From: Periconia sp. R9002
Taxonomy: Eukaryota; Ascomycota; Dothideomycetes; Pleosporales; Periconiaceae
DNA: 64,000 nucleotides
Direction of reading: 5' to 3'
Assembly: GCA_023627715.1 (NCBI GenBank)
Contig: JAMAHW010000017.1
Span: 124,001-188,000 of the forward strand
Shown: piece by piece, positions 22,602 through 54,194 of the stretch
Layout of the letters: each line of letters opens with the position of its first letter
Position numbering within the stretch: the stretch's first letter is position 1
The notes under the pieces: generated by a model
Database searches by the model: none
Told to the model about the DNA's origin: nothing
Seen by the model: only the letters and a program-made list of their open reading frames with translations
Made by a program: the position numbers and the translations under genes

Positions 22602-23394
22602 TCAGGCCGGACCCAAGTATTTGAGGTTTACAACATGATCTTCGCCTTCGAAATCGGCATCAACTTCTTCTTTCCTCGCGCTCACTTCGTCCTCGTACCC
22701 CAACAACAAACAATACCAACCCATCTCATCTTTATCAACCGCAAAACCCTCCCTCCTACTACTCGCTATCTTCGACGATCCCGTTACTGATACCCTTCCG
22801 CGCAATTCCTCCCCCATCCCTTCTTTCTCACCCTCACCCTCATCCCAAACGAACAACCTCACCGACGTCTCGTCCAGCATCCCCAACTCCCCAAAATCAT
22901 AATGCCGCACCAGCGGTCGTCCTGGCACAAAGAGCTTGCTGATGGTGCTCATGACGGGGGGAAACCCGGGTGTTTGCCAAAACTCCCAGTGGTCTTGAAT
23001 CTTGTCCCAATCGAGGAACCAGACGAGGGTTGTGGGATCGGTGGCGGAGAAGCCGTAGCTGGTTTTGCGGATACCTATAATTGCGGGAACAAAGTTATTT
23101 AAATGTAACTAGGGTGGTTACAATACATGATCACTGTCTTAATACGCCACGCTACGTGATGTCTCGATAACGAACGACTCTGTACTTAGAGTTCAACGTA
23201 CCTTTCGCAAAGGGTTTTCCCGGCGCCGTCTGCGAGAGGATGTGCGTCTCGAATTCGGCGGCGGCGGTAGCGTAGTCTTCAGCGTAGGTGAAGTTTAGCT
23301 TGAAGATTGAGATTTCTGTGACGGGCTTATTGAGGGATGAGGTGTGTGAAAGGAGTTGTTGCGTATAAGCGGCCATCTGCTCTGCCGTTGCCAT
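22602..23394 (-). CDS. Dimeric alpha-beta barrel (stress-responsive A/B barrel-like) protein interrupted by an introner-like element
   Basis: Exons complement(23202..23394) and complement(22602..23074); 221 aa. The single intron (23075-23201, 127 nt) splits a Gly codon and is a full copy of the ILE family, twice the usual intron length here. Residues 22-70 (ITEISIFKLNF-like start, then AEFETHILSQTAPGK) and VWFLDWDKIQDHWEFWQTP fit a ferredoxin-like A/B barrel domain; the C-terminal third is acidic and variable. Function unknown; such proteins are often small cytosolic stress-related or monooxygenase-like proteins. The stop lies 97 nt from the convergent lyase stop. The join across the ILE is supported by the conserved continuity KGIRKTSYGFSATDP. 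The sense strand turns G-rich in the last ~300 nt. Confidence 0.72.
23075..23201 (-). repeat. Introner-like element copy 1, active as an intron
   Basis: 127 nt, GTACGTT...ATTATAG on the minus strand. It contains the family head AACTCTAAGTACAGAGT (imperfect hairpin), middle GAGACATCACGTAGCGTGGC, and tail segments CCACCCTAGTTACATTTAA and TAACTTTGTTCCCGCAA. Aligned by eye to copies at 41327, 45437 and 52246. It is the only intron of its gene. Confidence 0.9.
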
Positions 23395-23930
23395 GGTTAG
23401 AGATTTGCCGCGTGATTGATCGCGGATTGTGTCTGGGGGAGAACATTGTAATTTGGTACCAAATTATCACTAATAATGGAGTTGGATATAGTTAGTCAGC
23501 TATGTTAAACTTATGCGAAACGATCTGTTCTCACAATACACTGCATCATGTGAGCAGGGGGGAAGAAAAAGCGTTGTCAGTTGGACGTTGTCAGTCAGAC
23601 CCACACTCCAGCGTTTTTTTATCCAGTGGGGGATAGATCACCAGAATTAGCCATGAGATTGGTGTTCGGCGTTCGGATAGCTCAATGCCGAATGCACCAT
23701 ATGGGTAGCATGTAGTACGTATTATTGAATACGTCTATACGATGATACGCCGGTACGGTGAATACGCCAAAGCGCGCTGTAAAAAGAGCAGCACGTGCAG
23801 GTTGTCTAGAACCAAAAAACCACCGCCTTGGCAGGTAGTGTTAAACTCGTCGATCAATCTTTCTTTCTCCTCTTTGCTAATTCCTCCCGTCCATCATTTT
23901 GCTCAACCTTGCCTTAGGTCTCTTTGAATT
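23395..23930. promoter_or_regulatory. Divergent intergenic region, A/B-barrel gene and P450
   Basis: 536 nt between divergent start codons, presumably holding both promoters. No repeat-family member recognised. Confidence 0.5.
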
Positions 23931-26053
23931 ATGGCAACCAACGATACGCAGTTCGGGAGTGTCCCCATGGCCAGCATGCCATATTTACCCTCCATATCTA
24001 TTTATCAACTCCTAATAATCCTTTTCATAGGATACATAACAATCAACAGGTACCAGTATTGGAAGAAAACGGTACGGCCTCCGTCAATCCTAGTTCATGG
24101 AGCAAGCAACTTACGCATAGACGTAGCCTAATGTAAAGCCTCTGGGATATGGACCTTTCCCACTGATTGGGCCTTGGATTGGCACGGTCCGGCCTCTACG
24201 AAATCCTGTGAAACTGGTACGGGAGGGAATTGCAGAGTCGAAGAATGGGTTGATGCGCATAGCAACTTTGCAGGGAGAATACGTGTTGATCGCCGACAAA
24301 GAGAAAGCTGCTGAATATCTAAGAGCTCCTGACGCTGTTCTTAATTCTCAAGATGGAGCGAACGATGTAAGTTCCAAACCAAGCCCATACAACTTCTGCT
24401 AACCCCGCATGTGCTCCACAGCAACAACAAATACCTTATACAATGGGTTATGGAATAGGCCACCGTACATATCATACTCCCGTGATTCGAGGTCCTGTAA
24501 CGCAAAGCATTCCCGCTTGGACACCGCTTTTGGCGGATGAATGCAAACTCGCCTTAGACGATCTGATCGGTAGCCCGAGTGGTTCGTTTAGCAGCTCATT
24601 ACAATAAATACACTCGTTTCATACTGAAATTGTGAGCAGAATACACACCAATCGCACTTTATGATTCTATTGCGATGACAGTGGCGCGTATGGCAAATCG
24701 AGTATACGTTGGCACTGAATTCTGTAAGGCGATAATTGTCGCGGTCCTTATTCAAATATAGACGTCTAACTCAGTTCGCAAATCATCTTTAGGCCGAAAT
24801 GAGGAGTATCTCAAGAACGCAACCGACTATGCTCAATCTGTAGTTATAACGGCAGAATTGATTAGGCCGTTTCCAGAATGGTTTAAGAAGTATGGTTGTC
24901 TATGTCTATATTCCCACACCCGCACACTAGAGAAAATCTAGCTCAAGTATGGCTAACCTCAAGCTAGGATCATCATACGATTCATGCCGGTAATGCGCCA
25001 TAGAAAGCTGGGAGAAGAGTTCCTCCGGCAATATATCCAGGAAAGATTGGATGGGAAAAGGGATGAATTCGGCCAGAAGCCCATTGACCTTGTCCAAATG
25101 CTTATTGACGGTGCGCCTCCGATTGAGAAGACAGTCACACAGCTTGCTGAAAGGGTATGTTCTTCCACGTACAAAGTAGTATCGAGACACCACGTGGCGT
25201 GACGTATTGAGACATTCACCACTCATTGGATCACCCCTAGTTGAGTTAAGCTGACTTCGTACCCGTGAATTTTAGGTCATGGCTCTCAATGTGGCATCAA
25301 TACACACAACTACCATGGTGAGTAAGAAGAAACGCTGATCCTAAGTTGCATTATGTGGCCAGAAATACGTTCAAAAAGCTAATAATGTTCGGTCAAATCT
25401 AAAGACATTTACGAGTGCCCTCTATACGCTTGCAGAGAACCCAGAAAAGTATGCAGATGCGCTCCGAAAAGAAGTATTGGAGAATTTGGAAAACGGCCAA
25501 GTGACGACGAGAACGGTGGCAAACCTTCCCAGAATGGAGAGCTTTTTGAGGGAATCGGGAAGATTCAATAACAACGGACTAAGTACGATCGCTCCAATTT
25601 TTAACACACACCGTTCGGAGTCTTGCGATTTCGAGTGTCACGTCAGCTAACGCGGTGTTGCTAAACAGTGGCGATGCAAAAAAATGCAAAAAAAGATTTC
25701 CGCTTCAGTGATGGCACCCTCATCCCCGCCGGCGCAAAAATCGGCACTGTGACTCTAGCTCTTCACCGCGATCCCAGGGTATACGAGAACCCCGACGTCT
25801 TCGACGGCTTCCGATTCTTCCAACCAGAACCGTCAGACTTGAAACCGTTCACCTTGGTCAATACAGGGGTCAATCACCACGTATTCGGCCACGGACGGCA
25901 TCCCTGGTAGGTCTTATCGCAAAATCAATTGTCGAGCAGTGCTGATGATGACGGATTGATAGCCCTGGACGGTTCCTGGCAGTCCACGAGATGAAGATCA
26001 TATTCGCAAATCTTTTACTGAGATATGATTGGAAACTTGCACCGGGTACATAG
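23931..26053 (+). pseudogene. Cytochrome P450 with late premature stop; one intron is an introner-like element
   Basis: Ten exons: 23931..24071, 24127..24366, 24422..24581, 24640..24723, 24793..24889, 24968..25154, 25276..25317, 25405..25582, 25669..25906, 25963..26053; 485 aa. N-terminal membrane anchor (IYQLLIILFIGYITI). P450 motifs are intact: I-helix segment NVASIHTTTM, K-helix LRESGRF (ExxR), and the heme loop FGHGRHPCPGRF created by the last splice. The frame stops at TAG 26051-26053 right after LLRYDWKLAPGT. Reading on gives 26 more codons (PEPFYIATMFIPDTKLKVLF...) to TGA at 26131, matching the usual P450 C-terminus. So it is a truncated enzyme, or a recent pseudogene. Intron 25155-25275 is an ILE. 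The exon 3 donor is ambiguous (24570 or 24582). Substrate unknown. Confidence 0.75.
25155..25275 (+). repeat. Introner-like element copy 2, intron of the P450
   Basis: 121 nt, phase 0, between LAER and VMALNVAS. It shares GTATCGAGACACCACGTGGC, CACCCCTAGTTGAGTTAAGC and TGACTTCGTACCCGTGAA with the family, and resembles copy 52246 more than copies 41327/45437, suggesting two subfamilies (tail TAAGCTGACTT against TTAACTAACTT). Confidence 0.85.
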
Positions 26054-26340
26054 CCAGAGCCTTTCTATATTGCGACTATGTTCATACCGGATACCAAGCT
26101 CAAAGTGTTGTTCAGGTCTCGGAATACATGATTTGTGGATTTGGATATGTACCAAAACCAGATAGCGGATTACGAACAAGTACATAGGCACGTCATAATG
26201 GCTGTGCCGTTTGTCTAAGTGATTATTTAGGTTATCGAGGGTCACCCAGTCATGCATACGGAAATTTTTAGTGTTAAGCAGGTTTGAATTTTTTTGGAAA
26301 GCCAATGATTGTGTAGCAGCGTATCTGCAAGGCGTGCATG

Positions 26341-26450
26341 GTGAACTCTAAGTCCAGAGTCCTTTTTCATCTAGAATCCACGTGGCGCAGCATCTTTGAA
26401 TATTAACCATGTCTTGTAACTACCCTGGCTGTACATAGCTAACTTTATTA
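26341..26450 (+). repeat. Introner-like element relic, intergenic
   Basis: Begins GTGAACTCTAAGTCCAGAGT (family head with hairpin), continues with CCACGTGGCGCAGCATCTTTG and GTCTTGTAACTACCCTGG, and ends TAGCTAACTTTATTA without the terminal GCGATATAG. No coding exons flank it in either frame, so it is not acting as an intron of a visible gene. Confidence 0.75.
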
Positions 26451-26483
26451 CACCAATCAATGGCGAAGAAGAAAACACTTTCG
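26451..26483 (+). mobile_element. 33-nt short dispersed element abutting an ILE relic
   Basis: CACCAATCAATGGCGAAGAA...ACACTTTCG, two or three differences from the copy at 54195. It starts exactly where the ILE relic stops. I find no clear flanking duplication. Confidence 0.6.
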
Positions 26484-26553
26484 ATAATTATGGAAACGGT
26501 GTCAAGAACTTGAGAAAAACGTCTCTCCAATTCAGGATGACCTTCATGCCCAA

Positions 26554-27553: not shown

Positions 27554-28033
27554 ATTCTGAAAAGTAATTGAAAGGAGGAAATATGATAGCCTGGGAAGAT
27601 GTTTTTTTTTTCTTTTTGGCGCGACATGCTGAGCCGAAGACATTAGTCTACAATTGACCGTGATGGCGTGGTGGCCTGATCGGTCCACCATGATCAAATG
27701 GCGTGTCCGCGCAAATCATCCTTGGTTCATGTTTGAGAATAGGGGAAATGTAGCTTGGGTTTCTACAAAGCACGCCGGACCGTTTGTTCTTTTCTCCTCT
27801 CTATTTACGTGATATTACATTGATGCGTAGGGTTCAGAACTCGGCGAGCCCCAAAGCTCTGCTGGCACACTATGTTTACAAAAGATTTGCAACATTTTTT
27901 TCTCAAATGATACTCATAACATATGCGGAGCATCTATACTATTTCTCGGGCATGTTTTATTGAACAGAAGAATTGTATACTTTGCAATCATATCTGCTTG
28001 GAGTCGTACGCATATTACGGTGAAAGGGAACTT
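27554..28033. other. Intergenic, hemerythrin-like promoter and TauD 3' UTR
   Basis: 480 nt, both neighbours on the minus strand. No repeat or RNA gene seen. Confidence 0.5.
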
Positions 28034-29423
28034 CTATTGATGTTTCCATCCTTTGCTCCCTAGATCGAGAAAAGGCGCTTCGCCCAAACTGCAAACACGA
28101 TCTCCGCACCGTGCCTCGGCATAATCATACGTTGCGCAATGCCAGTTACTTCGGTTGTCCCAGATAGCAAGGTCGTTGGGTCGCCATTTGAAGCGAACCT
28201 GGGCATCGTGGTTTTGCGTAACGATATTGAAAAGATACGGGAGAAGGAGATCCGACTCGTCTTTTGTGATGCCGTTGATGCGCTTCGTGAAACCCTTGTT
28301 CACATAGACTGATTTCCAGCCGGTCACAGCTGATATTTTGTTAGATGGAAAGTTGGGTTGACCGGAAGTATGACTTACGGTTTGTGCGAATTATAGGATG
28401 TGTGGCGGTCAAATTATCACCTGAATTCAATGGATGACCTCTAATGCCCTTTCTCAGAGGATTTCCTAGTCTTGCCGCCTCATCCAGGAAGAATCTCGCA
28501 TCATGAGTAGCAGTCAACCCCTCCAGAAACTTTTGCATGGCGGGTGATAGGCGGTTGTAGATTTCATACCCGCTCGCCCATAAAGTGTCTCCACCGGTTG
28601 CCGGAAGGGTGTGGATTTTGAGCATTGCATCTGATGTGCCGGTATGAAGTCAGCTTAGGTCAAGAATAAACGAAACGACAAGTAATCAAGATGTCGAAAT
28701 ATGATGTCTCGATACAGCTTTATACTCAAGAAAAACTTACAGTCTGAAGGGACGGGCTCGAAGGAAATATCCGTATGCCATCCTGCAGAAGCAAATCGCG
28801 ATACGTCAGAGAGCTGGTGTGTGAGACCTCCGCCCTTCTTCTGCTTCTCCGAGGACTGAGAATGTAGAGTTAGCACGAGAGAAGAGAGGTTGGTCTTGCG
28901 TCACGAAGATCATACAATTACGGATATCTGGTCGCCCAATTCAGATCCCTCCTCTGTTAGTGGATGTATATGAAGACCCGAGGAAGATGGCTAATCAATA
29001 TTAGTGTCGGGCTCTTTTATACTAATGTCCGCGGACAGCAACGTACACATCCAGCAAGCTCGGTTATACGTAACATTAAATCTTTCATTTGTATCGGTGT
29101 GACATCTTGATCGCGAAGAAAGACAACCCCACGTTGCGAAACTGCCCTACTGTTAGTCTACAAGTTTTGCAAATAACGAAAGTGAACGAACTTATGATTG
29201 CTAAATCTCGGATCATATCATCACCCCATTTGAGGAGATCTGTAACCTGGAGGCCCTCGAATTCCCTCCCAATGACTGGCGTCAGGTCCTGCTGCTTGAA
29301 TCTATCCAAAGTCCCAGAATATGTCAAAGGCTCTAGTAGCCTTGATCGAGCGTCTTCATGGCCGCCTACAATATTCGAAGCACTGTCATCCACGTCTTCA
29401 CGTGCGCGCTTGGCAGAGGGCAT
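28034..29423 (-). CDS. TauD/TfdA-family alpha-ketoglutarate-dependent dioxygenase
   Basis: Six exons: complement(29192..29423), (29047..29141), (28916..28990), (28741..28855), (28379..28630), (28034..28329); 354 aa. The frame closes over all five introns. Facial-triad residues are visible: GWHTDISF (His-x-Asp), and the distal NWHCATYDY followed by GDRV (His, and Arg for 2-oxoglutarate). Also FLRDQDVTP and LPATGGDTLWASGYEIY, typical of fungal taurine/sulfonate or alkylsulfate dioxygenases (Jlp1-like). The family couples 2-oxoglutarate decarboxylation to oxidation of the substrate; the substrate here is not determined. Intron 4 (28631-28740) is 110 nt and is a diverged ILE. The gene is divergent from a Dal5/Soa1-type transporter over 532 nt, suggesting joint uptake and oxidation of a small organic acid. 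Confidence 0.88.
28631..28740 (-). repeat. Diverged introner-like element, intron of the TauD gene
   Basis: On the minus strand the 110-nt intron contains GTATCGAGACATCA and TAAGCTGACTTCATACC, matching the P450 ILE (25155-25275) over 14/15 and 16/17 positions at corresponding places. The 5' hairpin is lost. It looks like an older insertion. Confidence 0.65.
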
Positions 29424-31711: not shown

Positions 31712-32278
31712 TTTCAAATCATCTTATCGGCCAGAGAGAAGCTAAAATGACAGCAATTGTCTGCGTCAATACCCATGGTAGCAATACTCTGTGAGGATTG
31801 ATCAATTCAAACATTAAATGTCATGACAGCAATTGTAACGTGGGTCTCAGATATGGCAAATTCGTACGAATTGCCCTGTCTGGCTGCCTATCATTAACAG
31901 CACTGAGGTCCAAGGGCAAATAGTCGATCACGCAATTTGACCATCGAATGACGCTACCCCGCAGACTTGAACGGGAATCTCCGCAATCGAACTTTTGTGC
32001 AGCTTGTCCAGATCTGGGGTTCCGTCCGAGATCTGAAGCTCCAAGTAAAGCTAGCTTGATGAGGAGGGCATCAAATGCCGCGGCACCTCGGCCTTACTTT
32101 TTTTCTGCAGCGCCTATCCATTTTCATCGTCAGTGGGGGTGGGGTGGCCACCATAGATGGAGGTTCATTGCAGACGGCCACTTCTCTGGCAGAAAGCTAC
32201 AGAGGAATTTTCCATTTTGCGTCGATACTTTGTTTCCTTCGACGAATTTCAAATATAAAGTGTGATCAAAGGAAAATA
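31712..32278. other. Intergenic, transporter 3' region and AKR promoter
   Basis: 567 nt. The left part carries a 62-nt element bounded by 14-nt direct repeats (31761-31822). The right part should be the AKR promoter. Confidence 0.5.
31761..31822 (+). mobile_element. 62-nt short element with perfect 14-nt target duplication
   Basis: ATGACAGCAATTGT occurs at 31747-31760 and again at 31823-31836, enclosing 62 nt that begin CTGCGTCAATACCCATGGTAG and contain TACTCTGTGAGGATTGATCA. The same core recurs at 46878. The head (GTGTCGATACC-like) resembles that of the 54-nt element at 51948. Confidence 0.6.
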
Positions 32279-33508: not shown

Positions 33509-34335
33509 GAACACTAATTTGGTGTTTTTGGCCCCCAATCTCCATCGAAGTGTTTGGTGGATCTATTCAACCCTATGGAAATGTTCTAAAGAAAAAGATA
33601 TTAATGAGGTCTCGTGGGTGTAACTGCTCATGCATGATGAGATTTCAGTTGAACCTTGGGCTACACAATTAAACAAATCGTCCAGCTTGACTGAACACTG
33701 AGACAGAAATGTCAAACAATGTTATTCTGGCCGCAGTCTTACCTGATTTTGATACTATGACTGATTAAATCAATCGATTGCGAAGAGAAAATTACTTTCG
33801 GCTTGCGATTCTGCTCAAAGATTAGCTCGACATTACCTAGATAGTGATGTAATTTTGGGCAAGGACTCAATGTAGGCGCCTTGGAAGGCAAATCACCGTG
33901 ATCACTGATCGCACATGATTATGTTCTAGTGTTCACTATTTGTGTGGTTTTGCGTTGCCAGCGACGGAGGAATCCTGACGCTAATTTCTTATGCCCACGA
34001 CACGGGCCATTAGGGTAAGCTGACCAGCTCGCTTTAGGGCATGATAACGAAGTTGTAGGTGTTTTCCATAGCTTTAGGTTAGTCTTTACGCAGAGTGCTG
34101 ACCTCTTTATGTTTGATGAAGAGCAGAGATTACTTGCCAATGCTGCTAATCTAACCCTTAGGGGAAGCATGCCACTCAATGCCCAGATTCCAGAGCCCGA
34201 TCTGGTAAATAATGGGAGAAATGCCGTTGGGTTATTTTCCATTTGCTAAATACTGATCCTTCATCCATCTCCATGACACTGCCACTACATTCTTCATCAC
34301 TGCTCCAGTCGCAGAGCGCGTAGCACTCCACCGAC
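33509..34335. other. Intergenic, AKR 3' region to pepsin-like gene
   Basis: 827 nt containing a degraded 54-nt short element (33746-33800). An in-frame ATG at 34273, followed by TAG at 34321, lies just upstream of the next gene. Confidence 0.5.
33746..33800 (+). repeat. Degraded copy of the 54-nt short element
   Basis: TTTTGATACTATGACTGATT...AATCGATTGCGAAGAGAAAA...ACTTTCG aligns over its full length with the copy at 51948, with about ten differences. No flanking duplication is detectable, consistent with age. Confidence 0.55.
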
Positions 34336-36072: not shown

Positions 36073-36871
36073 CCAAAACGTAATGGTTCGTGATTGATGA
36101 TGTTTGCGCGATTTTGGGGCTTTGTATATGTATTCTTTCCAAATTTTTCAAATGGTAGTCTAGGTATGATAAAACACAGACCATGATCTCAAGAGTTGTT
36201 ATCTACAACCGCGATAGTTCCAACGGGCGTACTGAAAGATTCCAAGAATAATTTGACCGCTAAAGCGTGTTGTTCAATATCAAGACAGCAAGCAGCGTAG
36301 CGTATTGAGATACTAATCATGTCCTGTAACTGCCCTAGTTGTCTTTAGCTAACTTTGTACCCGCAGTATTGGATTGCATTGTGGCAGATCCCAACAGGCG
36401 TGTAATCTAGATGACATATCATCACGGGCTCAACACATACACATTGACAAGCTAAATCATGTGTAAATGCTCGAAGTGCGTTACTAGTCTGCGTCTATTC
36501 AATGGTACGGTGTCATTTATCACCAAGGCATAACATGGCACCACGGATTTAAAATAAGACTCTGGTTATGCACCGTAACATCCCTGCTCTAGTCTCCCAT
36601 AAGTTCAATATTAGCGATGTACGCGTAATCTAGCTCTATAAACAGTATCAATAGGTAAAAGATATCTCCCGAATCCATCAAGTTTCCTCAGTAATTGAAC
36701 GGCACCCATTCTTCCCAACATAGACATCCAATGTTCTTACTCGCGACAGTTTAGCGCTCATAGTCCCCAGGGTTTTCAACGCCCTCAGTGTACTCATAAC
36801 TATAGCCATAAATGCCCTTGTTCACATCCATCAGTTTATAGATCTCTTGCTTCGAATCCAAATATCCAAAG
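36073..36871. other. Intergenic/decayed region upstream of P450 remnant, with ILE relic
   Basis: About 800 nt, AT-rich. It contains the ILE relic at 36269-36366. Earlier exons of the decayed P450 may be buried here but I cannot reconstruct them. Confidence 0.45.
36269..36366 (+). repeat. Introner-like element relic upstream of decayed P450
   Basis: It includes AGCGTAGCGTATTGAGATAC, TGTCCTGTAACTGCCCTAGT and TTTAGCTAACTTTGTACCCG followed by CAG. The 5' hairpin part is degraded. It may once have been an intron of the adjacent P450 pseudogene, in the same orientation. Confidence 0.7.
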
Positions 36872-37539: not shown

Positions 37540-37969
37540 GCGGAGTTATGCTAGGATATAGACGCGGACGCTTGGTGCGTTAAGGACATGTTAATGCTAA
37601 GAAATTCTCAATAACTCCATAATGAACGAATAACGGCTCGTGACATACATATGTGGTAATAGGTGAATCTTGTGCATTTTGAACAGGGCCGACGAGGAAG
37701 ATCATAGAGATGTCTCAAAAAACCTTAGAAGGGGTGACAGGATACTCGCACTGGTGAAGAAATAGCGAGGGCGGCAATCACGGAAGAGAGCAAGAAAAAG
37801 GGAAATCTTGCATAGAAATTACAATGCCTCGCTATTTCTTCACCAGTGCGAGTATCCGCTTTTCTCTTGAAAGAAACTCCAGCTGCCCAATTACTTGGCT
37901 TGGCCGTAGACATCCTAGTCACAACTTTTTTTTTTCGAACATGAGTCTCTTCCACTGCTCATTCGCATA
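37540..37969. other. Intergenic, RAE1 3' side with 31-bp inverted repeat
   Basis: 430 nt between the P450 remnant and the convergent RAE1 stop. Its main content is the inverted repeat at 37740-37857. Confidence 0.55.
37740..37857. repeat. Perfect 31-bp inverted repeat with 56-nt spacer
   Basis: Arm 37740-37770 starts GGATACTCGCACTGGTGAAG; arm 37827-37857 is its exact reverse complement over 31 nt. It lies 113 nt beyond the RAE1 stop codon and could fold in the 3' UTR transcript. It may be a fold-back element or an inverted duplication. Confidence 0.85.
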
Positions 37970-39127: not shown

Positions 39128-39349
39128 GGGTCAGTCGTAGCATCGCGGTTGGCATACTCCGGGGCTGGGGGGAATGGTTATTTAGCTTCGCTTAGGATTG
39201 ATAATCCGCAGCCTCGAGCCGTTAACCGGGTAGGTATGAACGTACCAATTACCGTCCTGGATTAGGTAAAGTCAATCCACCCATAGCGAAAAACCACCGA
39301 TGCCCCCGCATACTCTATCCAGGGGTATGTCGTACCTAGCCAGCGTGTT

Positions 39350-39539
39350 CATCAACCAAATAACTTACTTGGTTGACATCAGGGCGCTGGAGCACTACAG
39401 TGGGCGGACTAAACTATGGCCAATCACTTCAAGACTATCTGCTTACGTTAAAGCAACCGGTTGAATCGATCGGTCCAGAGGGTCCACATTTGCTTACAGT
39501 AGAGCCCTGACGTCAACCAAGTAAATTATTTGGTTGATG
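39350..39539. mobile_element. MITE-like element with 39-bp terminal inverted repeats
   Basis: 190 nt. The left end CATCAACCAAATAACTTACT(TGGTTGACATCAGGGCGCT) and the reverse complement of the right end match at 36 of 39 positions. Each end also has an internal palindrome (CAACCAA...TTGGTTG). No coding capacity. I cannot define a flanking duplication. Confidence 0.75.
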
Positions 39540-39572
39540 GACACACTGTTAGTATACAGATTAAAAATACAA

Positions 39573-39614
39573 CACTCCGCACTCCGCACTCCGCACTCCG
39601 CACTCCGCACTCCA
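39573..39614. repeat. Minisatellite of 7-bp units (CACTCCG)
   Basis: Five exact CACTCCG units and one CACTCCA, starting 34 nt from the end of the MITE-like element. The small ORFs crossing it in several frames are artefacts of the repeat. Confidence 0.9.
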
Positions 39615-39769
39615 CATTCTGCGCCATCACAAGTTGTACCTCTAAGTTGCACCGCATTTTGTATTTCGCTTTTCATCGCTTCAAACACAGTATCGGCGTC
39701 GGCTTATCCTAATTTAAAGTGAACCTATCAATTGATGCGTATAGTATAAAAGGATACAGCTTAGAAGCT

Positions 39770-39829
39770 ACCTAGAGGGCTTTTTGTTATTAAGGCACTA
39801 CGTACTATAGCGTATTAAGATTCAAACTA
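39770..39829 (+). repeat. Introner-like element fragment
   Basis: TTTTTGTTATTAAGGCACTA and GTACTATAGCGTATTAAGAT correspond to the middle of the ILE (compare 41352-41390). It is truncated at its 3' side exactly where the 54-nt short element begins. Confidence 0.55.
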
Positions 39830-39882
39830 GTGTTGATACCGTGACTGATTTCACCAATCAATTGCGAAGAAGAAGACACGTT
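39830..39882 (+). mobile_element. 54-nt class short element, abutting ILE fragment
   Basis: GTGTTGATACCGTGACTGAT...CACCAATCAATTGCGAAGAA...GACACG, nearly identical to the copy at 51948 for its first ~50 nt. The 3' end is altered (GACACGTTAAGACACGTTAA). Confidence 0.65.
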
Positions 39883-40319: not shown

Positions 40320-42005
40320 ATGGAAGAATCAGTTCATCAATCTATGCGTTCTCTTTCACAAGAGCCTAGGTCGGAAATGGAATTCGAGTTTGTTACTATC
40401 AGCCCTTTGGAAAATCAATCACAATCGACCCGGAGACGTATCAGAAGTCGGGCGAGTCGGTATCACCATCAACAAGTCCGTGACCTTAAAAGACAAGGAC
40501 GCCGGAAGATCCGGCAGGATGAAATCGAATTGGATGCGACTCCTCTTCTACTACGGACAACGTCTACCTTTGATAGTCACCTTCCCGAGAGTATTGGAGT
40601 AGCATCCGTAGTACCGAGTGAACAATTAACAATATCTCCTGGATTTGGTCGTTTCGACCCGTTCTTTAAACCCCCAATCCAAATGAACTACAGTGAATAT
40701 GAGCTTTACGATCATCGTGGGTGGCCCTGATTGTCCGATACAGTAACACCGATCTAAAAAGCGCTTAGTTTTTGATCAGTCCTGTGTTATGTTTCTTACA
40801 ATGCAGAACATCGGCTTTCTCACGCTTGCACGAATCAGTTTAGGGTTCCGCCAGCTATTGGCCATCTCATCGTGGCATCTATGCCATCTCAACCAGACTC
40901 GGCCAAGCAATGAGTATCTCAAACTTTCACTATCGGCCACGCAGGAGCTCCAGAACCAGATCAGTCATCCTCTGCACTGCTGCACAGATGATTCTATCAT
41001 TGCTGTCTTGACATTCCTTTGTTGCGCTGTAGGTAATTTCTAGATCTGTATGGTTCCGAACGCATAAGCTAAGCTTTCCAAGAATCTCATACACGATACT
41101 GCAGCTTTCAAAGTTCATCGAAATGGCTTGCGTCTTATGATTAATCTTCGAGGTGGCATACAAACACTGGACACCACTCCTATATTAAGAACAATGCTAT
41201 ATTTGGCAGACGTAAATGGTTCATGCCTTCAAGACATACCCCCGCTCTTTCCAGCCCCGCTACATCTTCTTGAGGACGCAACCAAGGAAGAAATCAGCCT
41301 GCTGACCATGAGGCATGCAGCTCCAGGTATGTTAAACTCTAGGTATAGAGTAGTTTGTTATTAAAAACCACGTAGCGTAGCATACTAAGATACTGATGAT
41401 GCACTGTAACTACCCTAGTTGCCTTTAACTAACTTTGTACCCGCGATTTAGATATCCTTATAACTGGAAATATCCTTTCAACAATTCAACGATTACACAA
41501 GAGAATCATTATTGAGCTGCATCGTCGAAATGTCTGGAAGGATCCAGTCTTCCAAGGAATGCAGATTATACCAATCCTTGGCCAACTCCTAGCTCTTGGC
41601 TCAGTTTCTCCACAAAGAGCTAATGGAAACCCCACAATTATAGAAGCATTTCGTCTAGCAGCGATTCTTCATCTCAACGCTCTTCGGGCAAGATTTGGAG
41701 TGGATACCGTTTACGTAGAACCGGTATATGCAAGGAAACTCGAGCTCATCGTAAGTTCACGATGGTTAGGTCATGATGTTCCCTCAGCAGAATTAGGCTG
41801 GATCCTTGCCACTGCATATACGGCGAAATGCAACGCAGACCAAAAGGAAATTTTCAGAAAAATGCTTCTTGATCATGTGAAAGATTCCGGTGCTTCCAAT
41901 TACACAATGATTCAAGAAAAACTGGAGAGTGTAGCATGGGACAGAACTCTTCTACCGGAACAATCACAAGATTTGGAGAACCTGTTCTCTTCCAAGCTAC
42001 AGTGA
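40320..42005 (+). CDS. Fungal-specific transcription-factor-domain protein without zinc cluster
   Basis: Exons 40320..40716, 40769..41028, 41083..41326, 41452..42005; 484 aa. The start EMEFEFVTISPLENQSQSTR, then RRIRSRASRYHHQQVRD, is the conserved N-terminus of a large Pezizomycotina family that has the fungal transcription-factor middle region but no Zn2Cys6 motif. Later blocks: LTLARISLGFRQLLAISSWH, NLIHDTAAFKVHRNGLRLMI then NLRGG, and TMLYLADVN. The third intron (41327-41451, 125 nt) is a full-length ILE splitting an Asp codon. The exon 3 acceptor could be 9 nt upstream (41074). The upstream in-frame GTG at 40284 is not a start. Function unknown; probably a regulator or protein-interaction factor. 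Its stop is 20 nt from the convergent MDR stop. Confidence 0.72.
41327..41451 (+). repeat. Introner-like element copy, active as an intron
   Basis: 125 nt, GTATGTTAAACTCTAGGTATAGAGT... with a perfect ACTCTA/TAGAGT hairpin, middle CCACGTAGCGTAGCATACTA, then GTAACTACCCTAGTTGCC and TTAACTAACTTTGTACCCGC and a terminal GATTTAG. One of the best preserved copies. Confidence 0.92.
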
Positions 42006-42025
42006 AAACTAGTCTGTACATGTTT

Positions 42026-43021: not shown

Positions 43022-44089
43022 GTTTGTCGAGTGGTTGTTCAGTAGTAGATGTAAATAAGATCAATCTGATTTTGGGGAAAATATGGTTGAGAAGAAGTTA
43101 GGAAGGGTCTGAAGTTTGAAAGAAATTCAGGCGAGTTTGATGTACGTATTTATACTTTCATATGAGGTGTCTAGGGTCTCAAAACGCGGAATTATATCTG
43201 AACACTGTATCTGTCTGGGGCTTGAGGATGTGTGTTTTGATTCGTCAAGATTGATTATGCATATATGATCGGTCAATACGACGCGAGTGCGTTGCCTAAA
43301 TCAGGATTAGTGGCGCTGGCTCTATAGCTCATAACCACTAGGGAACATTCGAAGAAGACTTTGTTAAGGCTGATACTGCATATGTATTTATCAGCAGATC
43401 AAATGAATGTTTTCCGTAAGCTGTAGACACTCCGGCATTTCCAAGGAGGTACAAAGCTCTTTTGTGAAAAGATCTAGTCGATTTGCGAGAATCACAATGT
43501 ACTTTTGAGTATCTTGAGCCCTGCCCAATGTCCTTCAGGTCAAAATGGGCGTCTTGCCAAGTTTGATTTATTCAATCTTGGCACAATCGGTCCATCATTG
43601 CTCCATTTGCCGTCCGGCTAACACCTTCCCGGGATAGCCTTTATGATATCTCCACCAACTAGTACCGAATTCCCTCACACCCCGGTGTGGAAATAGCCTA
43701 CACTCACAATACTTACTACTTTATATAATATACGTAAAGCACCTCTCCCTCCTAAGATTACAACTTTTTTAGGCGGAAGTAGGATACTAGGAAAGTATTT
43801 CTATTAATAAACTTTACTCTTCTTTGTCTTATTTTACTTGTTCAAGATATAGGGTTTCTTAGATAGATATACTACAGGTCTTTCTGTGAGTGTGGGATAC
43901 ATTGGCACTCGCGCGCCAGGATCACTTGGGTAATAAATCCGTATTCCCCGCAAAATACCCCAACCTTTAACCCGGATGTCGACTGAATACCCATGATCAG
44001 CCCATTCTAAAGCCATAAAGTCGTCCACGCCGCCCAAGTTCGCATTTTGGATGTATTCTCAATTTTAATGCCTGTCAGATTTCGACAAA
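43022..44089. other. Intergenic, MDR promoter and GH92 promoter, with one repeat copy
   Basis: About 1.07 kb between divergent genes. It contains an AT-rich repeat (43684-43830) that is the reverse complement of 49564-49735. No RNA gene seen. Confidence 0.55.
43684..43830 (-). mobile_element. Inverted-orientation copy of the 49564-49735 MITE-like element
   Basis: GGTGTGGAAATAGCC, TTACTACTTTATATA, GCACCTCTCCCTCCT and AAGTAGGATACTAGGAAAGT match, in order, the reverse complement of the copy at 49564. The far end is unclear, so the right boundary is approximate. Confidence 0.65.
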
Positions 44090-46765
44090 ATGCGCCTAAA
44101 TATCCCTTGGTGGTGTACAATACCTATATTAACGTACGCTGCTGAAACGAATGATTACACACAATACGTTGATCTATTCATCGGGACAGAAGGACCAATT
44201 CGTGGAAGTGCGTACAGCAGTGGCAATGTGTTTCCGGGAGCCACACTGCCATTCGGCGCTGTGAAGGTGGGGATTGACACCACAAGGTATTATACTAACT
44301 CCAATAACCCCTTCATAGGCTGACATTTGAATCTCGCGTCATAGATGGGACACATCATTTGCTGCTAATGCAGGCTATACGCCGGATGGGAACGTGACAG
44401 CTATTACAATGCTTCATCAGAGTGGAACAGGCGGAGCTCCGACGGTAAGTTCTCTTGGTCCGGGCCCAGATTGAGTGTCGTTGTGGGGCCTTGATCACCC
44501 AGTGCATCAATCCAAGTTGAATGAAACTAACTTTGTATCCACGAAATGTAGTACGGCATAGTGCCTCAAATGCCCCTGACAAGCTTGGAAGGAGTCGATA
44601 TAATGGATAATCTGACGTATATGCAACCACGGATAGGACCCGATGTCGCAAACGTTGGTTATTACAAGACAAGTCTTCAGAGTGGCGTGGTAGCCGAGAT
44701 GAGTGCAACTCATCACGCTGGGATCATGAAATACACCTACCCTGCTCATGATTCCAAGCATATTTTGGTTGATCTTAGCCATATCATCCCTTCTAAAGGC
44801 AAGAGGGAACAGTGGTACAGCAATGGAGTTTTGGAACGAAGTGAGACGGGGGATCAATACACTGGTTATGGTGTCTGGAGAGAAGGCTGGACCGGTGGAG
44901 GAGACTATCGAGTCTACTTTTGCGGACACTTCGACACGTCTCCTGCTACAGCCAAATTCTTCTCTGGGCCTGCCACTGATCCTTATTGGCCAAACGCGAC
45001 TTTCACGTCGACCACCTTCAGTGACTCAACGTACATGAGTGGTGGTACTGTGGGGTATCAGTACGCCAATCGTGTAGGTGCGCTCTTTGAATTCCCTTCC
45101 AATGCCACCACTGTGGTATCGAAAGTCGGTATATCGTGGATATCGGCAGAGAAAGCGTGTGCGTTTCTTGAAGATGAGATTCCGCACTGGGATCTCGAGA
45201 AGACCGTAGCGGAAGCGAAGACAGCATGGAACACAGAAGTTCTATCCAAAATAGAGATAAATTCCGACAACGCCACTGAGAAAACCATGTTCTACACCGC
45301 CCTATACCATGGTCATCTTCTTCCATCCGACAGAACCGGCGAAAATCCAAACTGGAATTCCAGTGAGCCTTACTATGACGACTTCTACACGCTTTGGGAC
45401 ACATTTAGATGTTTACATAGCCTACATACACTAATTGTACGTTGAACTCCAGGCACAGAGTCAGTTGTTACCGAGACACCACATAGTGTGGCGTATTGAG
45501 ACACTAATAATGTACTGTAACCATCTTAGTTACATTTAACTAACTTTGTATCCGCGATATAGGTACCGCAAAGAATGGTGGATATCATCAGATCTATGAT
45601 CGACATCTGGAGGCACGAACGATTCATGCCCGAAGGTCGAGCACACAATCACAACGGCCGTGTGCAGGGAGGCAGCAACTCCGACAACGTGCTTGCGGAT
45701 GCCTATGTCAAAGGTCTTCCAGGAATCAACTGGAAGGATGGGTATGCGGCCATGAAGACCAACGCCGAGCTCGTCCCCTACAACAACTTCGATTTCGAAG
45801 ACCCATCTGGCAGCACCAAAGAGGGACGGGGCGCTCTGGAAGACTGGAAAAAGTACGGATTTGTGACTCCCTCTTTTGGACGCAGTCTAAGCAAGACTGT
45901 TGAATATTCGCTCAATGACTGGTCCCTTTCTCAGGTTGCACGCGGCGAAGCTCCTCAGGATGTTTCTCTTTATTTAAATCGATCGCAAGGCTGGAAAAAT
46001 CTCTGGGATCCCAACCTTACCTCGCTAAATTTTACTGGATTCTTGGCTCCTACATATGCCAACGGCTCGCATTCACCCCAGAATCCTCTTTCATGTGGCG
46101 CCTGTGACTGGCTTGCCATTGCCTATGAAGGCGTACCGTGGGAATACTCCTGGACGATACCGTTTGATATGGTTACGCTTATTGAGATGATGGGTGGGCC
46201 AGCATCTACTGAGCGTCGTCTCGATGCTATGTTTATTCCGGGTCTATCTAATTCAGACGCAGGCGGCAACAGTGCTGGCACGATGATATTCAACCCGGGC
46301 AATGAACCCAGTTTTATGACGCCTTTTCTGTATAATTATCTGTCCCGCCGGCAGTGGAAGAGTGTGGCCATGGCACGTAATATTACAGACGCATTTTACG
46401 GTAGCGATGCAAGCGGATTGCCCGGTAATGACGACGCGGGAGCTTTGAGTAGTTGGCTCATCTGGACGTGGCTAGGACTCTATCCCGTTGTCACACAACC
46501 CGTGTATCTCTTGCTAAGTCCCCGATTTGATGACATTACTATGAATGTGGGGAACAGCACGTTGAGAATCACCGCAGACAGAAAGGGTGGGAAGGGGATA
46601 TTTGTGCAGAGCGTAAAAGTAAATAATAATACGTGGTACAGGGCATGGGTGCTGCACGAGGACCTAGTTCGGGAGGGAGGGGCTACCATTGAGTTCATTT
46701 TGGGTGAGGAAAAGACTGAATGGGACACGGGCGATTCACCACCCAGCCCAGGCAGAATTGCATAA
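44090..46765 (+). CDS. Secreted GH92 alpha-mannosidase, with one full and one partial introner-like intron
   Basis: Exons 44090..44286, 44345..44444, 44552..45436, 45563..46765; 794 aa. Short signal peptide (LNIPWWCTIPILTYAAE). GH92 features: YVDLFIGTEGPIRGSAYSSG, NVFPGATLPFGAVKVGIDTT, FYTALYHGHLLPS, YYDDFYTLWDTFRCLHSLHT, VQGGSNSDNVLADAYVKGLP, and GLPGNDDAGALSSWLIWTWL then GLYPV. GH92 enzymes are calcium-dependent exo-alpha-mannosidases, mostly alpha-1,2, acting on N-glycan or fungal mannan; linkage here is inferred. Many sequons suggest a glycosylated extracellular enzyme. Intron 3 (45437-45562) is a full ILE in phase 0; intron 2 (44445-44551) ends with the ILE tail only. The joins LHTLI|VPQRMVDIIRS and GGAPT|YGIVPQMPL restore conserved blocks. 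Confidence 0.93.
44445..44551 (+). repeat. Partial/old introner-like intron in GH92
   Basis: The 107-nt intron ends AAACTAACTTTGTATCCACG AAATGTAG, matching the ILE tail CTAACTTTGTATCCGCGATATAG of the intron 885 nt downstream. The 5' two thirds do not match, so it is either a decayed copy or a chimera. Confidence 0.6.
45437..45562 (+). repeat. Introner-like element copy, active as an intron of GH92
   Basis: 126 nt, GTACGTTGAACTCCAGGCAC...CTAACTTTGTATCCGCGATA TAG. It is flanked by GTAC on both sides: GTAC forms the donor, and GTAC directly follows the terminal AG. This may be a 4-nt target duplication. Confidence 0.92.
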
Positions 46766-47606
46766 ATGCAAAGTAAAACCGCGAATAACTGTTTTTTTCA
46801 GCGGACGGGATCGTTCTCACGGCAAACTGAATCTCTGAAAGGACTGCAGCTCGCTATATAATGCTTATCCTTCCTACCTGTGTCGATACCCCGGGTAGCG
46901 ATATTCTGTGAGGATCAAATTCAATTTCATAATGCTTATCCCATACAACCAAAGATTATGAGGAAATTAATACCTGTCTGCATGAACTACGTTCTATCGC
47001 ATGCATGTGTTCAAGTTGTAATACTATGCCGAAAACGGAAAGTTTTCCTCACAACATCGAATTACGGAGTTACATAAATTAACTCCATTTCGTGCTAATG
47101 TATATACTAGTCCTAAGAAGGAAATCTCTTCTACGTTGAGCCAGACTAGGTAGGTATTACGTTGCCAATCTCCTATCTTGCAAGTAATGACGACCTCTAG
47201 GGTTGTCCCGGAGTCATAACCACTAGTTCTATTGGCTCTGGTTCGTCTTTCTACCATGTATTGCACAGCATGTGCTCGAATAACAGACGGAAAAGGCCCA
47301 CTTTCGCCGAAAGAGCAAAAGAGCTGAAACGTAGAAAAACCTCTTCATGGTATTTCAAAGCATTTCATAATGACCATAGAAATTTTATTTATACTATTCT
47401 AATGCTTTCAAATCCAATCTGAGCCGGGATCACCTTCCGTCGAGTGCTGCATGGCAATGGTGGCATCTACTTAAAGCCTCAAGACGCTGCACATTATATA
47501 TCTCGCCATAGCAGCAACTTTTCATCGCTCCGGATTACTTGCCCATTATACATTCTCATTTCACATAGCCTCTTTTACTGCATTGACTCCCGGAATCGTT
47601 CACAAC
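46766..47606. other. Intergenic, GH92 3' region and SDR promoter
   Basis: 841 nt. A short element bounded by 13-nt direct repeats lies at 46871-46928. The rest is AT-rich without recognised features. Confidence 0.5.
46871..46928 (+). mobile_element. 58-nt short element with perfect 13-nt flanking repeat
   Basis: ATAATGCTTATCC at 46858-46870 is repeated at 46929-46941. Between them, CTGTGTCGATACCCCGGGTA and ATTCTGTGAGGATCAAATTC match the 62-nt element at 31761. Both copies lie just beyond the stop codon of the upstream gene. Confidence 0.6.
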
Positions 47607-49164: not shown

Positions 49165-49451
49165 ATGCTTCCCACATATTATAGGATCACCCTAGACCTC
49201 TAAAAAAAGTGAAAATGGCCTATTTTTTAATACATCTATTAGGAGGAAATAGGGCCTAATCCACCTATAGCTAATAAGGATATTCACCTAAGTTATAATA
49301 TCATCTATAATATTAATTTACTAGTAAGTATACTAGCTTATCTATTATATATCCTTAAATATATCAGCCGAGGATCTATATTATAGAGAAATAGATGCTT
49401 TTTCAACTTTTTTTAGAGGTCTAGGGTGGCCCTATAATATGTGGGAAGCAT
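49165..49451. mobile_element. MITE-like element with 46-bp terminal inverted repeats
   Basis: 287 nt. Left arm 49165-49210 (ATGCTTCCCACATATTATAG...CTAGACCTCTAAAAAAAGT) and the reverse complement of 49406-49451 match at 44 of 46 positions. The interior is AT-rich and non-coding. The flanks are TA-rich, so the target duplication is unclear. Confidence 0.85.
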
Positions 49452-49563
49452 TATATTATGCCTGTGGGATATGTTTTCCCGGTAGCATCTCACTAATTCT
49501 GAAAGCTAACTGCTGTTTGCATTGTTTCTTGAAGGCTTTGCAGTGTTAGTGAAGTAGACTCAC

Positions 49564-49735
49564 GGGTGTTAGAATATCCCGCATTTACAAAACATTATGA
49601 GTAAAAATGTTCTATATAAACACTCTCCTAGTATCCTACTTACTTCTAATAGATTTATAATAACAGGAGGGATAGGTGCTTAAAGTATTGTATATAAAGT
49701 AGTGAGTGTTATAAATGCGGGCTATTTCCACACCT
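49564..49735 (+). mobile_element. MITE-like element, second family
   Basis: The ends GGGTGTTAGAATATCCCGCA and (reverse complement of right end) AGGTGTGGAAATAGCCCGCA form imperfect inverted repeats of about 27 nt. It is related in reverse orientation to 43684-43830. Non-coding. Confidence 0.7.
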
Positions 49736-50063
49736 GGATGGTAGACTAAAGATGAGAATGTGTACCAGGCTCGTAATCAGCCGGTGCCTGTCGTGACAAG
49801 GCTTGTGATTCGACGCTCATTGTTACCCCGCGCGCGATGGAAGTCTTCCAAATCCTATTAATACCCTTTGTAGCATGTCAAGGCCCTTTTCCGAATTTTG
49901 AGATGGTTATAGACGTCATGGCGGTACTTCCGAGGGTGGCAAGGGTTGGGAAGCATGGAAATGATAGCGCCAACCTTGAACGCATATAAAGATGTGTTGA
50001 CCATATTCATAAACCGTATGAAGCAGATCAATTCACCAACAAAAATTCTGCAAAGAGTTCAGA

Positions 50064-51908: not shown

Positions 51909-51947
51909 CGCTTTTTTCATGTGTAGGAATTTATAGGTTTGCCACAA

Positions 51948-52001
51948 GTGTTGATACCGTGACTGATTTCACCAATCAATTGCGACGAAGAAGACACTTT
52001 G
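51948..52001 (+). mobile_element. 54-nt short element with perfect 15-nt target duplication
   Basis: ATAGGTTTGCCACAA occurs at 51933-51947 and 52002-52016. The enclosed 54 nt read GTGTTGATACCGTGACTGAT TTCACCAATCAATTGCGACG AAGAAGACACTTTG. The last 33 nt equal the shorter copies, so the short form looks 5'-truncated. Confidence 0.75.
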
Positions 52002-52245
52002 ATAGGTTTGCCACAAAAATGAACAAAACACGGTTAGGGGTGAAGACGTATGGGAAACAAGATTCATAATTCCCGGAATATACAAGAAAAATCAATGACA
52101 TGAACTTGGGTGAGATTCTGCCTAGTTCTATCGTTATGCTCTATTGCACTAAGAAAAATCTTCTTCGCAATCACAATATATAACGTTATGGCATCGAGAC
52201 AGCATAACGTTATAACGTTATAACATAATTTCAAACTTAATATTA

Positions 52246-52371
52246 GTGTTTTAAGCTCTAGGTATAGAGTTGTTTATTATCAAGACACCACGTAGCATAG
52301 TATATCAAGACATTCTTTACTTATTGTGTCACCCCTAGTTAAGTTGAGCTGACTTTGTACCCACGATATAG
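52246..52371 (+). repeat. Full-length introner-like element outside any recognised gene
   Basis: 126 nt, GTGTTTTAAGCTCTAGGTAT AGAGT...GAGCTGACTTTGTACCCACG ATATAG. It is flanked by GTGT on both sides (its own first four bases and the four bases after AG). Neither flank reads as coding sequence. Closest to the P450 copy at 25155. Confidence 0.85.
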
Positions 52372-52811
52372 GTGTAACAATCGCTGAACGAGATTTAAGA
52401 TATAGCTCTTACGGGGGATCATCGTAAGACCACTTAAGAGTCGCAATATCTATACTAAAAATCATCAAAAACCATGAAGAGTGATATGTAGGCATCAAGA
52501 AGCCGCTAACCAAAAGCAGTCGTAGTGTGCTTATGGAGGCATGCCAGTAGATGGATGACTCTTCAAACGGACGGTCGGACGATGCAAGTATAATTCTCAC
52601 CATTTTAAACTTCTGGAATTCTTCAGAAAAGTCCGGAATGTTTGAGAATATTCGTGCGTATGTTGCTTGTGGATATATAAGGGGGTGGACTGATGTAGTT
52701 ATACGGAATAAAAATACAGCACTTGAGCTTTCAGTTGTCACTCCATCGAGCCAATAACATCAAATCTGTGCATCCCAAGCCTACCCCATTCACTTTCCAG
52801 ATCGTTACAAA

Positions 52812-53978
52812 ATGGATATAACACCCTTCAAAATCGATATCCCTCAAAGCAAGATCGACGACCTGCGCCGCAGAATCGCAAACACCAACTGGGCTCCAGA
52901 GCTCGATAACGATGACTGGTCCTATGGTGTCAACGGTACATACCTACGCGAGCTTATGTCGTATTGGCAAAATCATTTCGATTGGCGAGCGCAGGAATCG
53001 CGCATTAACGCTTTCCCGCAGTATCGCACTGAGATAGATGGGATACCAATCCACTTCATTCACGTCAAGTCAAAAGGGCCGAATCCGACGCCTATCATAT
53101 TGAACCACGGATGGCCATGGACATTCTGGGATTTCAAGGATGTGATCATGAAGTTGGCGGATCCAGCCGCCCATGGAGGCAATTCTGAGGATGCTTTCGA
53201 TGTCGTGGTTCCCTCCCTACCCGGATTCTGTTTCTCTGGTCCGCTGAAGAAGAATGGGGTCGGATATGTCGAAACGGCTGAGCTGTGGGTGAAACTTATG
53301 AAAGGCCTCGGTTATGAGCGTTTTGTTACACACGGTGGTGATGCGGGGGCGTTTATAAGCGCTCGACTTGGACATGCCCATCGGAAATCTATCATGGGTG
53401 TCCATCTCTCATTCCCCATTCTCCCTGGTGTTCCTCACGACGCTGGCGATCCTACGGACTTCACCCAAGAGGAACTTGAGGCAATTGGAGATCAAAAAAG
53501 AGGTCCCGGGGATTTTGTGCATGTCTTGATCAACAGTACCGACCCGCAGACACTTGCTTGGGCGATGCACGACAGCCCCGTAGGACTGGCAGCATGGATC
53601 CTTAAACGGCGACGGGATTGGAGTGATTGCAAAGGCGATATTGAGAACAAGTTCGATAAGGACACTCTACTTACTTATCTATCGCTCTACTGGTTTACTG
53701 ACTGCTTCATTGGCACCGAGTTATTCTGTAGAGCCTCCAATTTTGCCGCGCCTATGGAGTTGACCAACGACTTGAAACCTGAAATCAGTGTACCTACAGC
53801 TGTTGTCATGCTACCTAAGGATTTAATGCATAAGCCCCGGTCACTGGTTGCTGCGCACACTGATTTGCGCCAATGGACATTAGCTTCATCTGGTGGGCAT
53901 TTTGGGGCTGCTGAGGAACCTGAGTTGATGGCCGAGGATATTCGGAATTTTGTTCGCCCTTTGCGCAACATGAAGTGA
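52812..53978 (+). CDS. Epoxide hydrolase (alpha/beta-hydrolase with EHN domain)
   Basis: Single exon, 388 aa. Residues 1-110 are the epoxide-hydrolase N-terminal domain (FKIDIPQSKIDDLRRRIANT NWAPEL, then YWQNHFDWRAQESRINAFPQ Y). The alpha/beta-hydrolase core has the oxyanion motif NHGWPWTFWDF, the nucleophile elbow THGGDAGAFIS (Asp), and a late SSGGHFGAAEEPE with the catalytic His. This is the microsomal-type/juvenile-hormone-type class that opens epoxides to diols. No membrane anchor is seen, so a soluble protein is likely. Substrate unknown; detoxification or metabolite processing are both possible. An ILE relic begins about 95 nt after the stop, on the opposite strand. Confidence 0.93.
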   Translation: MDITPFKIDIPQSKIDDLRRRIANTNWAPELDNDDWSYGVNGTYLRELMSYWQNHFDWRAQESRINAFPQYRTEIDGIPIHFIHVKSKGPNPTPIILNHGWPWTFWDFKDVIMKLADPAAHGGNSEDAFDVVVPSLPGFCFSGPLKKNGVGYVETAELWVKLMKGLGYERFVTHGGDAGAFISARLGHAHRKSIMGVHLSFPILPGVPHDAGDPTDFTQEELEAIGDQKRGPGDFVHVLINSTDPQTLAWAMHDSPVGLAAWILKRRRDWSDCKGDIENKFDKDTLLTYLSLYWFTDCFIGTELFCRASNFAAPMELTNDLKPEISVPTAVVMLPKDLMHKPRSLVAAHTDLRQWTLASSGGHFGAAEEPELMAEDIRNFVRPLRNMK

Positions 53979-54072
53979 TGGGAAGATGCGTTTCAAGGGA
54001 AGAGGTGGCATAACATGCACATATGAGTGTTGTAGTTACTGTTCCAGGTGCCAGTATGAGGGGACGGCCAGA

Positions 54073-54186
54073 TCGCGTAAAAAGTAAATTAAACTTGATC
54101 GGGAAAATTACAGGGCGATGTTATGGTCGCAAAACGCCACACCCTTAGATGTCTCCATAGCGACTCTATACCTGAGGTATAACACC
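54073..54186 (-). repeat. Introner-like element relic on the minus strand
   Basis: The minus strand reads GGTGTTATACCTCAGGTATA GAGTCGCTATGGAGACATC, then GGTGTGGCGTTTTG and TGTAATTTTCCCGATCAAGT TTAATTTACTTTTTACGCG, parallel in order to the family consensus. No coding sequence flanks it. Confidence 0.7.
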
Positions 54187-54194
54187 TCACCCCA

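Follow-up and report, generated by a model that had tools for sequence, protein, structure and literature searches.

Introner-like elements of Periconia sp. R9002 that probably duplicate a 3-bp target and borrow their splice donor from it

Introner-like elements (ILEs) have been described in the Dothideomycetes Zymoseptoria, Fulvia and Dothistroma (PMC4457414), and we report here a family of this kind from Periconia sp. R9002, recognized in a 64,000-nucleotide stretch of contig JAMAHW010000017.1 (positions 124,001 to 188,000; hereafter the window) and followed through the 42.9-Mb genome assembly of 267 contigs. As far as the accessible sections of PMC4457414 go, the two are alike in numbering hundreds of introns that resemble one another across unrelated ascomycete genes, and in forming several subfamilies with pairs up to 98-99% identical and a similarity that fades with age. 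By description rather than by sequence, the Periconia family differs from those ILEs in its duplicated triplets, in a donor taken from the target and in its non-intronic copies. Introners of the dinoflagellate Symbiodinium microadriaticum, according to the excerpted text of PMC9860276, share with it a 3' splice site supplied by the element, a 5' site from the duplicated target and a splicing event, predicted in our case, that restores the original sequence; they possess 4-bp target-site duplications (TSDs) and terminal inverted repeats (TIRs), whereas the ascomycete family described here has 3-bp duplications and an internal 10-nt inverted repeat. The same survey places introners in Alternaria alternata and other Pezizomycotina, to which extent they resemble ours, and its available portion describes ascomycete families without TIRs or TSDs; the 3-bp duplications in most of the present copies set this family apart from them.

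Proliferating ascomycete introns are also represented by the sister stwintrons and cropped sister introns of Hypoxylaceae and Xylariaceae (PMC8469720, PMC12403724), some of which, in the passages at hand, carry 10-nt near-terminal inverted repeats (NTIRE-10), comparable to the 10-nt inverted repeat inside the ends of our element. For 288 stwintrons PMC12403724 gives no TSD but 10-nt near-terminal inverted repeats, and the portion of PMC8469720 consulted does not report flanking duplications. Those sister stwintrons are described as seamless twin introns, whereas the present family consists of single introns with a duplicated triplet. Assignment to the sister stwintrons ([D1,2] type, with a GGT start and a second intron splitting the donor) was rejected, as the copies are single units that start GTAT, GTGT and so on. 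Among the open-access titles and abstract openings that we screened, none mentioned TSDs for introners of fungi. What looks new in comparison with known introners is the mark of DNA transposition on most copies, together with a donor that the target appears to supply. Intron gain in fungi is an open question, and ascomycete introners have stood out, in what could be consulted of the two surveys, by their lack of duplications or inverted repeats (PMC9860276, PMC12403724). The combination of subfamily-specific duplications, non-intronic copies and a composite donor would make that question directly testable, beginning with the enzyme that cuts and with a second route for seamless copies. A duplication hidden in the donor is easily missed where surveys equate the ends of the intron with the ends of the element.

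The family extends over the whole genome. Allowing up to three mismatches, patterns for the head, middle and tail of the element gave 156, 211 and 100 matches (overlapping counts that are not additive), and the reversed patterns gave none, which rules out chance similarity. A genome-wide search of this kind had been proposed in an earlier note on this DNA, made from the letters of the window, whose classification as introner-like elements is borne out by the many similar introns in different genes. The profile search returned 191 matches, which were reduced to 140 unique copies after merging those with the same internal sequence, and 119 of these have both ends; 108 copies entered the triplet correlation, 117 the analysis of splice ends, 115 that of phase, 109 (at least 85 bits) the triplet classes and 108 the stratified shuffle. 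Copies chosen by the head pattern begin GTAY by design, so that donor frequencies are biased; 23 of 30 loci chosen by the tail have the G. An alignment of 110 copies showed a median divergence of 9% from the consensus; over the 123 nt, two copies were typically 83% identical (median of all pairs), and the most alike pair reached 99.2%. These identities, together with copies that lie outside genes and inside other repeats, speak against ordinary ancestral introns resembling each other by chance, a reading that is scarcely credible and already contradicted for the conserved subfamilies. The active (or recently active) intron gain proposed in the earlier note has its only evidence in the pairs that are 98-99% identical. 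A brief look at decay within the element counted 970 transitions and 435 transversions, with C>T highest in CpG.

The mobile unit is 123 nt long, GTTGAAC...ATATAGG (GTTGAACTCCAGGTACAGAGTC...CTAACTTTGTACCCGCGATATAGG), and is usually flanked by TAT in the main subfamily and by TGT or TGC in a second one, rarely by other triplets. Within a given copy, the bases preceding GTTGAAC tend to match those following ATATAG. When the two flanking tetranucleotides were compared over 108 copies, a correlation appeared at positions 2, 3 and 4 (p = 5e-5 for each of them) but none at position 1 (p = 0.46), and the main subfamily alone gave the same pattern (p up to 2e-4). Letters agreed in 75% of comparisons with the flanks in register 0, and in 5-46% at the 11 remaining shifts that could be scored. 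Identical triplets were present in 61 of 108 copies, where shuffling confined to clusters of internal sequence (2-12 of them) led to an expectation of 42.9-45.1 (p = 1e-4). The excess was seen in GT..AG copies (47/73 vs 30.6 expected), in copies lacking GT (11/25 vs 3.5, p = 1e-4) and in copies whose 5' triplet is not TAT (14/43 vs 3.4, p = 5e-5), where the identical pairs include TGC/TGC, TAG/TAG, TAA/TAA and ACA/ACA. The 19 copies of the second subfamily comprised six TGT/TGT and four TGC/TGC pairs and no TGT/TGC mixture. Taken as a whole, a target-site duplication of fixed length, 3 bp, is found in most copies, and a minority lack it. We consider it likely that the family is built on a 123-nt non-autonomous DNA element that duplicated 3 bp of its target in most insertions and that borrows its donor from that target.

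The length of the duplication follows from the behavior of the base before the triplet. Where that base is not G it is T (10 copies), A (8) or C (8), and this distribution differs from decay of G within the element, where 71% of changes are G>A (p = 2.8e-5). Because of this difference and the position correlations, we assign the base before the 5' triplet to the target, the G at the 3' side to the element and 3 bp to the duplication. A 4-bp duplication that includes the G was rejected on the same two grounds. An element with GTAT built in at both ends was discarded as well, since non-TAT triplets match and phase is kept. Recombination between a circular form and a specific site, as in Crypton-like elements, would also produce direct repeats without cutting and filling, the triplet of the circle recombining with a matching one in the target. 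The repeats are indeed short and sequence-specific (TAT; TGT or TGC), and a 5' TAT facing some other 3' triplet (14 kinds listed) is expected if the core belongs partly to element and partly to target; nevertheless, the identical non-TAT pairs and the missing TGT/TGC mixture fit a copied target better, and we regard recombination of a circle as very unlikely.

According to the transposition reading that we prefer, insertion at a staggered cut would leave equal triplets on both sides, the cutting and joining presumably being performed by an enzyme from another element. The element itself carries the acceptor ATATAG and CTAAC, which we take to be the branch-site motif, but not the donor GT, whose G would come from the target and whose T from the duplicated triplet. 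A G-TAT target would thus become G-TAT-[GTT...ATATAG]-G-TAT, with GTATGT as the donor, and removal of GTAT...ATATAG would restore the original G-TAT and leave the protein unchanged. With A, C or T before the triplet no GT donor would arise, and the copy would stay a non-intronic insertion.

The ends and flanks of the copies are consistent with such splicing. The earlier note had suggested examining whether copies fall at splice boundaries: 78 of 117 copies with both ends are GT..AG, and exact removal left the phase in agreement on the left and right in 53 of 76 of them, compared to 9-14 of 76 when the acceptor was shifted by 1 or 2 and to 9 of 25 copies without GT. Codon scores were used because counts of open frames were too weak (control sites were open in 123 of 224). 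A sense codon score above 5 was obtained for 19 of 76 GT..AG copies, for none of the 39 others and for 14 of 137 random sites, and an antisense score above 5 for 1 of 76 GT..AG copies. Flanking DNA was richer in GC around GT..AG copies (fraction 0.495; p = 2.6e-6 vs all others) than around copies without GT (0.425). In six cases, alignment with the proteins of other organisms shows no indel at the junction (RNA polymerase I RPA2, a ketosynthase, an aldehyde dehydrogenase, GH92, an FSP1-like oxidoreductase and an ABM-type protein). The RPA2 junction, NQSPRN^MYQCQ, is identical in the yeast chain and two others; the tyrosine encoded by its TAT is shared by all three aligned chains, which makes this triplet older than the insertion. 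One copy, L004, begins GC in place of GT. From their GT..AG ends and open frames, the copies are predicted to be spliced as read.

Several observations weigh against transposition as the source of all copies. At most one of the three triplet letters matches in 15 of 73 GT..AG copies; in 14 of these 15 the intron is followed by G, and in 10 the phase is kept. Two of the mismatching copies, L007 and L012, are only 4% from the consensus, and L007 shares 98.4% of its letters with L003, a non-intronic copy; mutation therefore does not explain their mismatch. The diverged subfamily has identical triplets in 0 of 4 copies, with 2, 1, 1 and 1 of the three letters matching. Agreement at the last position taken singly was 10 vs 7.9 expected (p = 0.15) in a 14-copy subset of the second subfamily, and copies without AG had identical triplets in 4 of 11 vs 2.5 expected (p = 0.11). 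The stratified shuffle was coarse, as one cluster of 79-89 copies held nearly the whole main subfamily. Random unspliced sites agreed in phase in 71 of 137 cases, which makes phase alone modest evidence. No transposase or longer partner element turned up, none having been searched for.

A pure RNA route, in which reverse splicing or repair with intron RNA inserts GTAT...ATATAG without a seam and the trailing GTAT reflects a site preference for G-TAT, accounts for the 15 mismatching copies with their following G and kept phase, for the four diverged copies without identical triplets and for two copies (L014 and L055) without gain or loss at the junction. It also agrees with fungal cases published without TSDs, as far as the cited excerpts describe them. 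This route does not predict that triplets agree copy by copy, nor that copies preceded by A, C or T have matching triplets, and as an explanation of the family we find it unlikely. The GT..AG minority without a matching triplet may nonetheless have entered seamlessly by one of these means, and we tentatively entertain, as somewhat short of even chances, two routes in one family, with DNA jumps into genes and noncoding DNA that duplicate 3 bp and yield introns only behind a G, and with seamless re-insertion of intron copies before an exonic G, as expected of an RNA-based route. This, if true, would bring the DNA-transposon introners known from algae and the seemingly seamless fungal ones together in one element.

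Sites without the element were sought by searching the genome with joined flanks. Among four loci searched in this way, only L135 gave relatives across the junction (at 14 of 16 other places); L095, searched separately, gave them at 8 of 8. The repeats that hold these two copies thus have relatives without an introner at the site. Letters at the empty sites were compared for five relatives of L135 and eight of L095, plus L118 and L085. For L135, one triplet was favored by two relatives and two triplets by three, with one tie; for L095, one triplet was favored by six (four of them by a single point) and two triplets by two, with one tie. The mixed scores, which we count among the points against the duplication, are indecisive because the sites are rich in TATATA, and a single GTAT at L135 would be compatible with both a duplication and seamless insertion before GTAT.

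The consensus of the 123-nt unit shows no TIRs at its very ends. A 10-nt inverted repeat (GGTACAGAGT / ACTTTGTACC, 9 of 10 letters) lies 11 nt inside both ends and was equaled in 1 of 5000 shuffles. A conserved RNA stem between these near-terminal repeats was rejected (988 paired cells vs a shuffled mean of 992); the consensus folded at -29.6 vs -26.9 (SD 3.5), and folding of the alignment yielded one small hairpin. An inner CCACG/CGTGG hairpin had 10 double changes in 544 cells. At their 5' ends, L147 (105) and L153 (222), both with a good body and tail, have GGTGAGCTT and GGTAAGCCC instead of GTTGAACTC, possibly a changed donor. At L116, L087 and L022, a copy or fragment begins at GTAT directly behind the ATAG of another copy, as if the duplicated triplet of one copy had served the next as its target.

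Within the window, a profile derived from an alignment of 47 sequences from across the genome (including the window copies at 45437 and 23201) matched 11 copies with E up to 0.0016, and gave no match up to E = 1 against the reversed or complemented window. A twelfth, more diverged copy is also present (Table 1). The earlier note had counted about eleven copies, several of them introns; the count is 12, and six read as introns by open frame, two of which had been missed (44446-44551 and 28631-28740). The similarity of the four introns it had named (23075-23201, 25155-25275, 41327-41451 and 45437-45562) holds in a proper alignment. Its claim that they share the same modules in the same order stands for the middle and tail of 25155-25275 and fails for the AACTC..GAGT head, this intron belonging to a diverged subfamily (GTATGTTCTTCC...). 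Its view of the mechanism was partial, overlooking the 3-bp target duplication, the non-intronic copies and the borrowed donor. When the other six copies were removed, the frame spanning the site was open for 72-303 nt (+) and 84-339 nt (-) of the 600 nt tested; these copies look non-genic, with 26336-26448 (303/339) not clear-cut.

Table 1. Copies of the introner family in the window, with their flanking triplets and hosts.
Copy	Position	Strand	Evidence (start of profile match)	Triplets 5' / 3'	Host and remarks
Introner copy, GT..AG intron	23075..23201	-	profile match (23201)	TAC (23198-23200) / TAT (23071-23073)	gene for ABM-type protein (name taken from homologues); junction inside K^GIR motif, G in 30/30 homologues among the matches listed
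Diverged-subfamily copy, GT..AG intron	25155..25275	+	profile match (25163); frame open after removal	TAT / TCA, differ	presumably a cytochrome P450 gene, by motif; 73-aa piece without Pfam match
Most diverged copy, GT..AG intron	28631..28740	-	E = 0.08 in first profile; frame open after removal	TAA / TGC	presumably a TauD-type dioxygenase gene, by motif; 5' module common to other diverged copies
Introner copy, GT..AG intron	41327..41451	+	profile match (41327)	TAT (41328-41330) / TAT (41453-41455)	270-aa open frame, Pfam search without match; A precedes 3' triplet
Diverged copy, GT..AG intron	44446..44551	+	profile match (44466-44547)		GH92 gene; frame GGAPT^YGIVPQMPL open after removal
Introner copy, GT..AG intron	45437..45562	+	profile match (45437)	TAC (45438-45440) / TAC (45564-45566)	glycoside hydrolase family 92 gene, the same as for 44446..44551; element 45441-45563; Pfam GH92 domain spans junction; PDB 6f8z alignment without indel there
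Copy outside open frames, second-subfamily triplets	52246..52372	+	profile match (52251)	TGT (52247-52249) / TGT (52373-52375)	open span 75 nt (+), 216 nt (-)
5'-truncated copy outside long open frames	36267..36369	+	profile match (36269)
Diverged copy without readable 3' end	26336..26448	+	profile match (26338)		short repeat at 26450 directly after
Diverged copy outside long open frames	54073..54184	-	profile match (54184)
Copy fragment	36504..36586	+	profile match (36504), E = 4e-5
Copy fragment	39769..39824	+	profile match (39769), E = 0.0016		short repeat at 39826 directly after

Two proteins were compared with their homologues. The ABM-type protein is closest to proteins of Xylariaceae (69%), Neoarthrinium (65%) and Periconia (63%); for an aspartic protease, the 120 best matches listed place Periconia digitata (69%) and other Pleosporales nearest. 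These affinities are those of a filamentous ascomycete and make a dothideomycete host plausible and the Pleosporales likely. Alternaria also belongs to the Pleosporales.

Other repeats accompany the introner copies. A second short dispersed repeat (GTGTTGATACCGTGACTGATTTCACCAATCAATTGCGAAGAAGAAGACACTTT) occurs at 51944-52000, 39826-39882, 54194-54231, 26450-26487 and 33742-33798, and three of its copies directly adjoin introner copies. Direct repeats of some 15 nt seem to flank two of them (ATAGGTTTGCCACAA; ATAACACCTCACCCC), and others lack part of the 5' end, as would be the case in a retroposed element. Another dispersed repeat, CTGTGTCGATACCC.GGGTAGCGATA.TCTGTGAGGAT, lies at 31761-31798 and 46878-46915 and adjoins introner copies in L003, L022, L044 and L108. 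The window also contains a perfect 31-nt inverted repeat (37740-37770 / 37827-37857, with 56 nt between the arms) and three imperfect ones, 77-90% complementary, of 142 nt (43678-43819 / 49599-49740), 63 nt (49165-49227 / 49389-49451) and 48 nt (39341-39388 / 39501-39548). Elsewhere in the assembly, contigs C88 and C89 are both 187280 bases long, and their introner copies differ.

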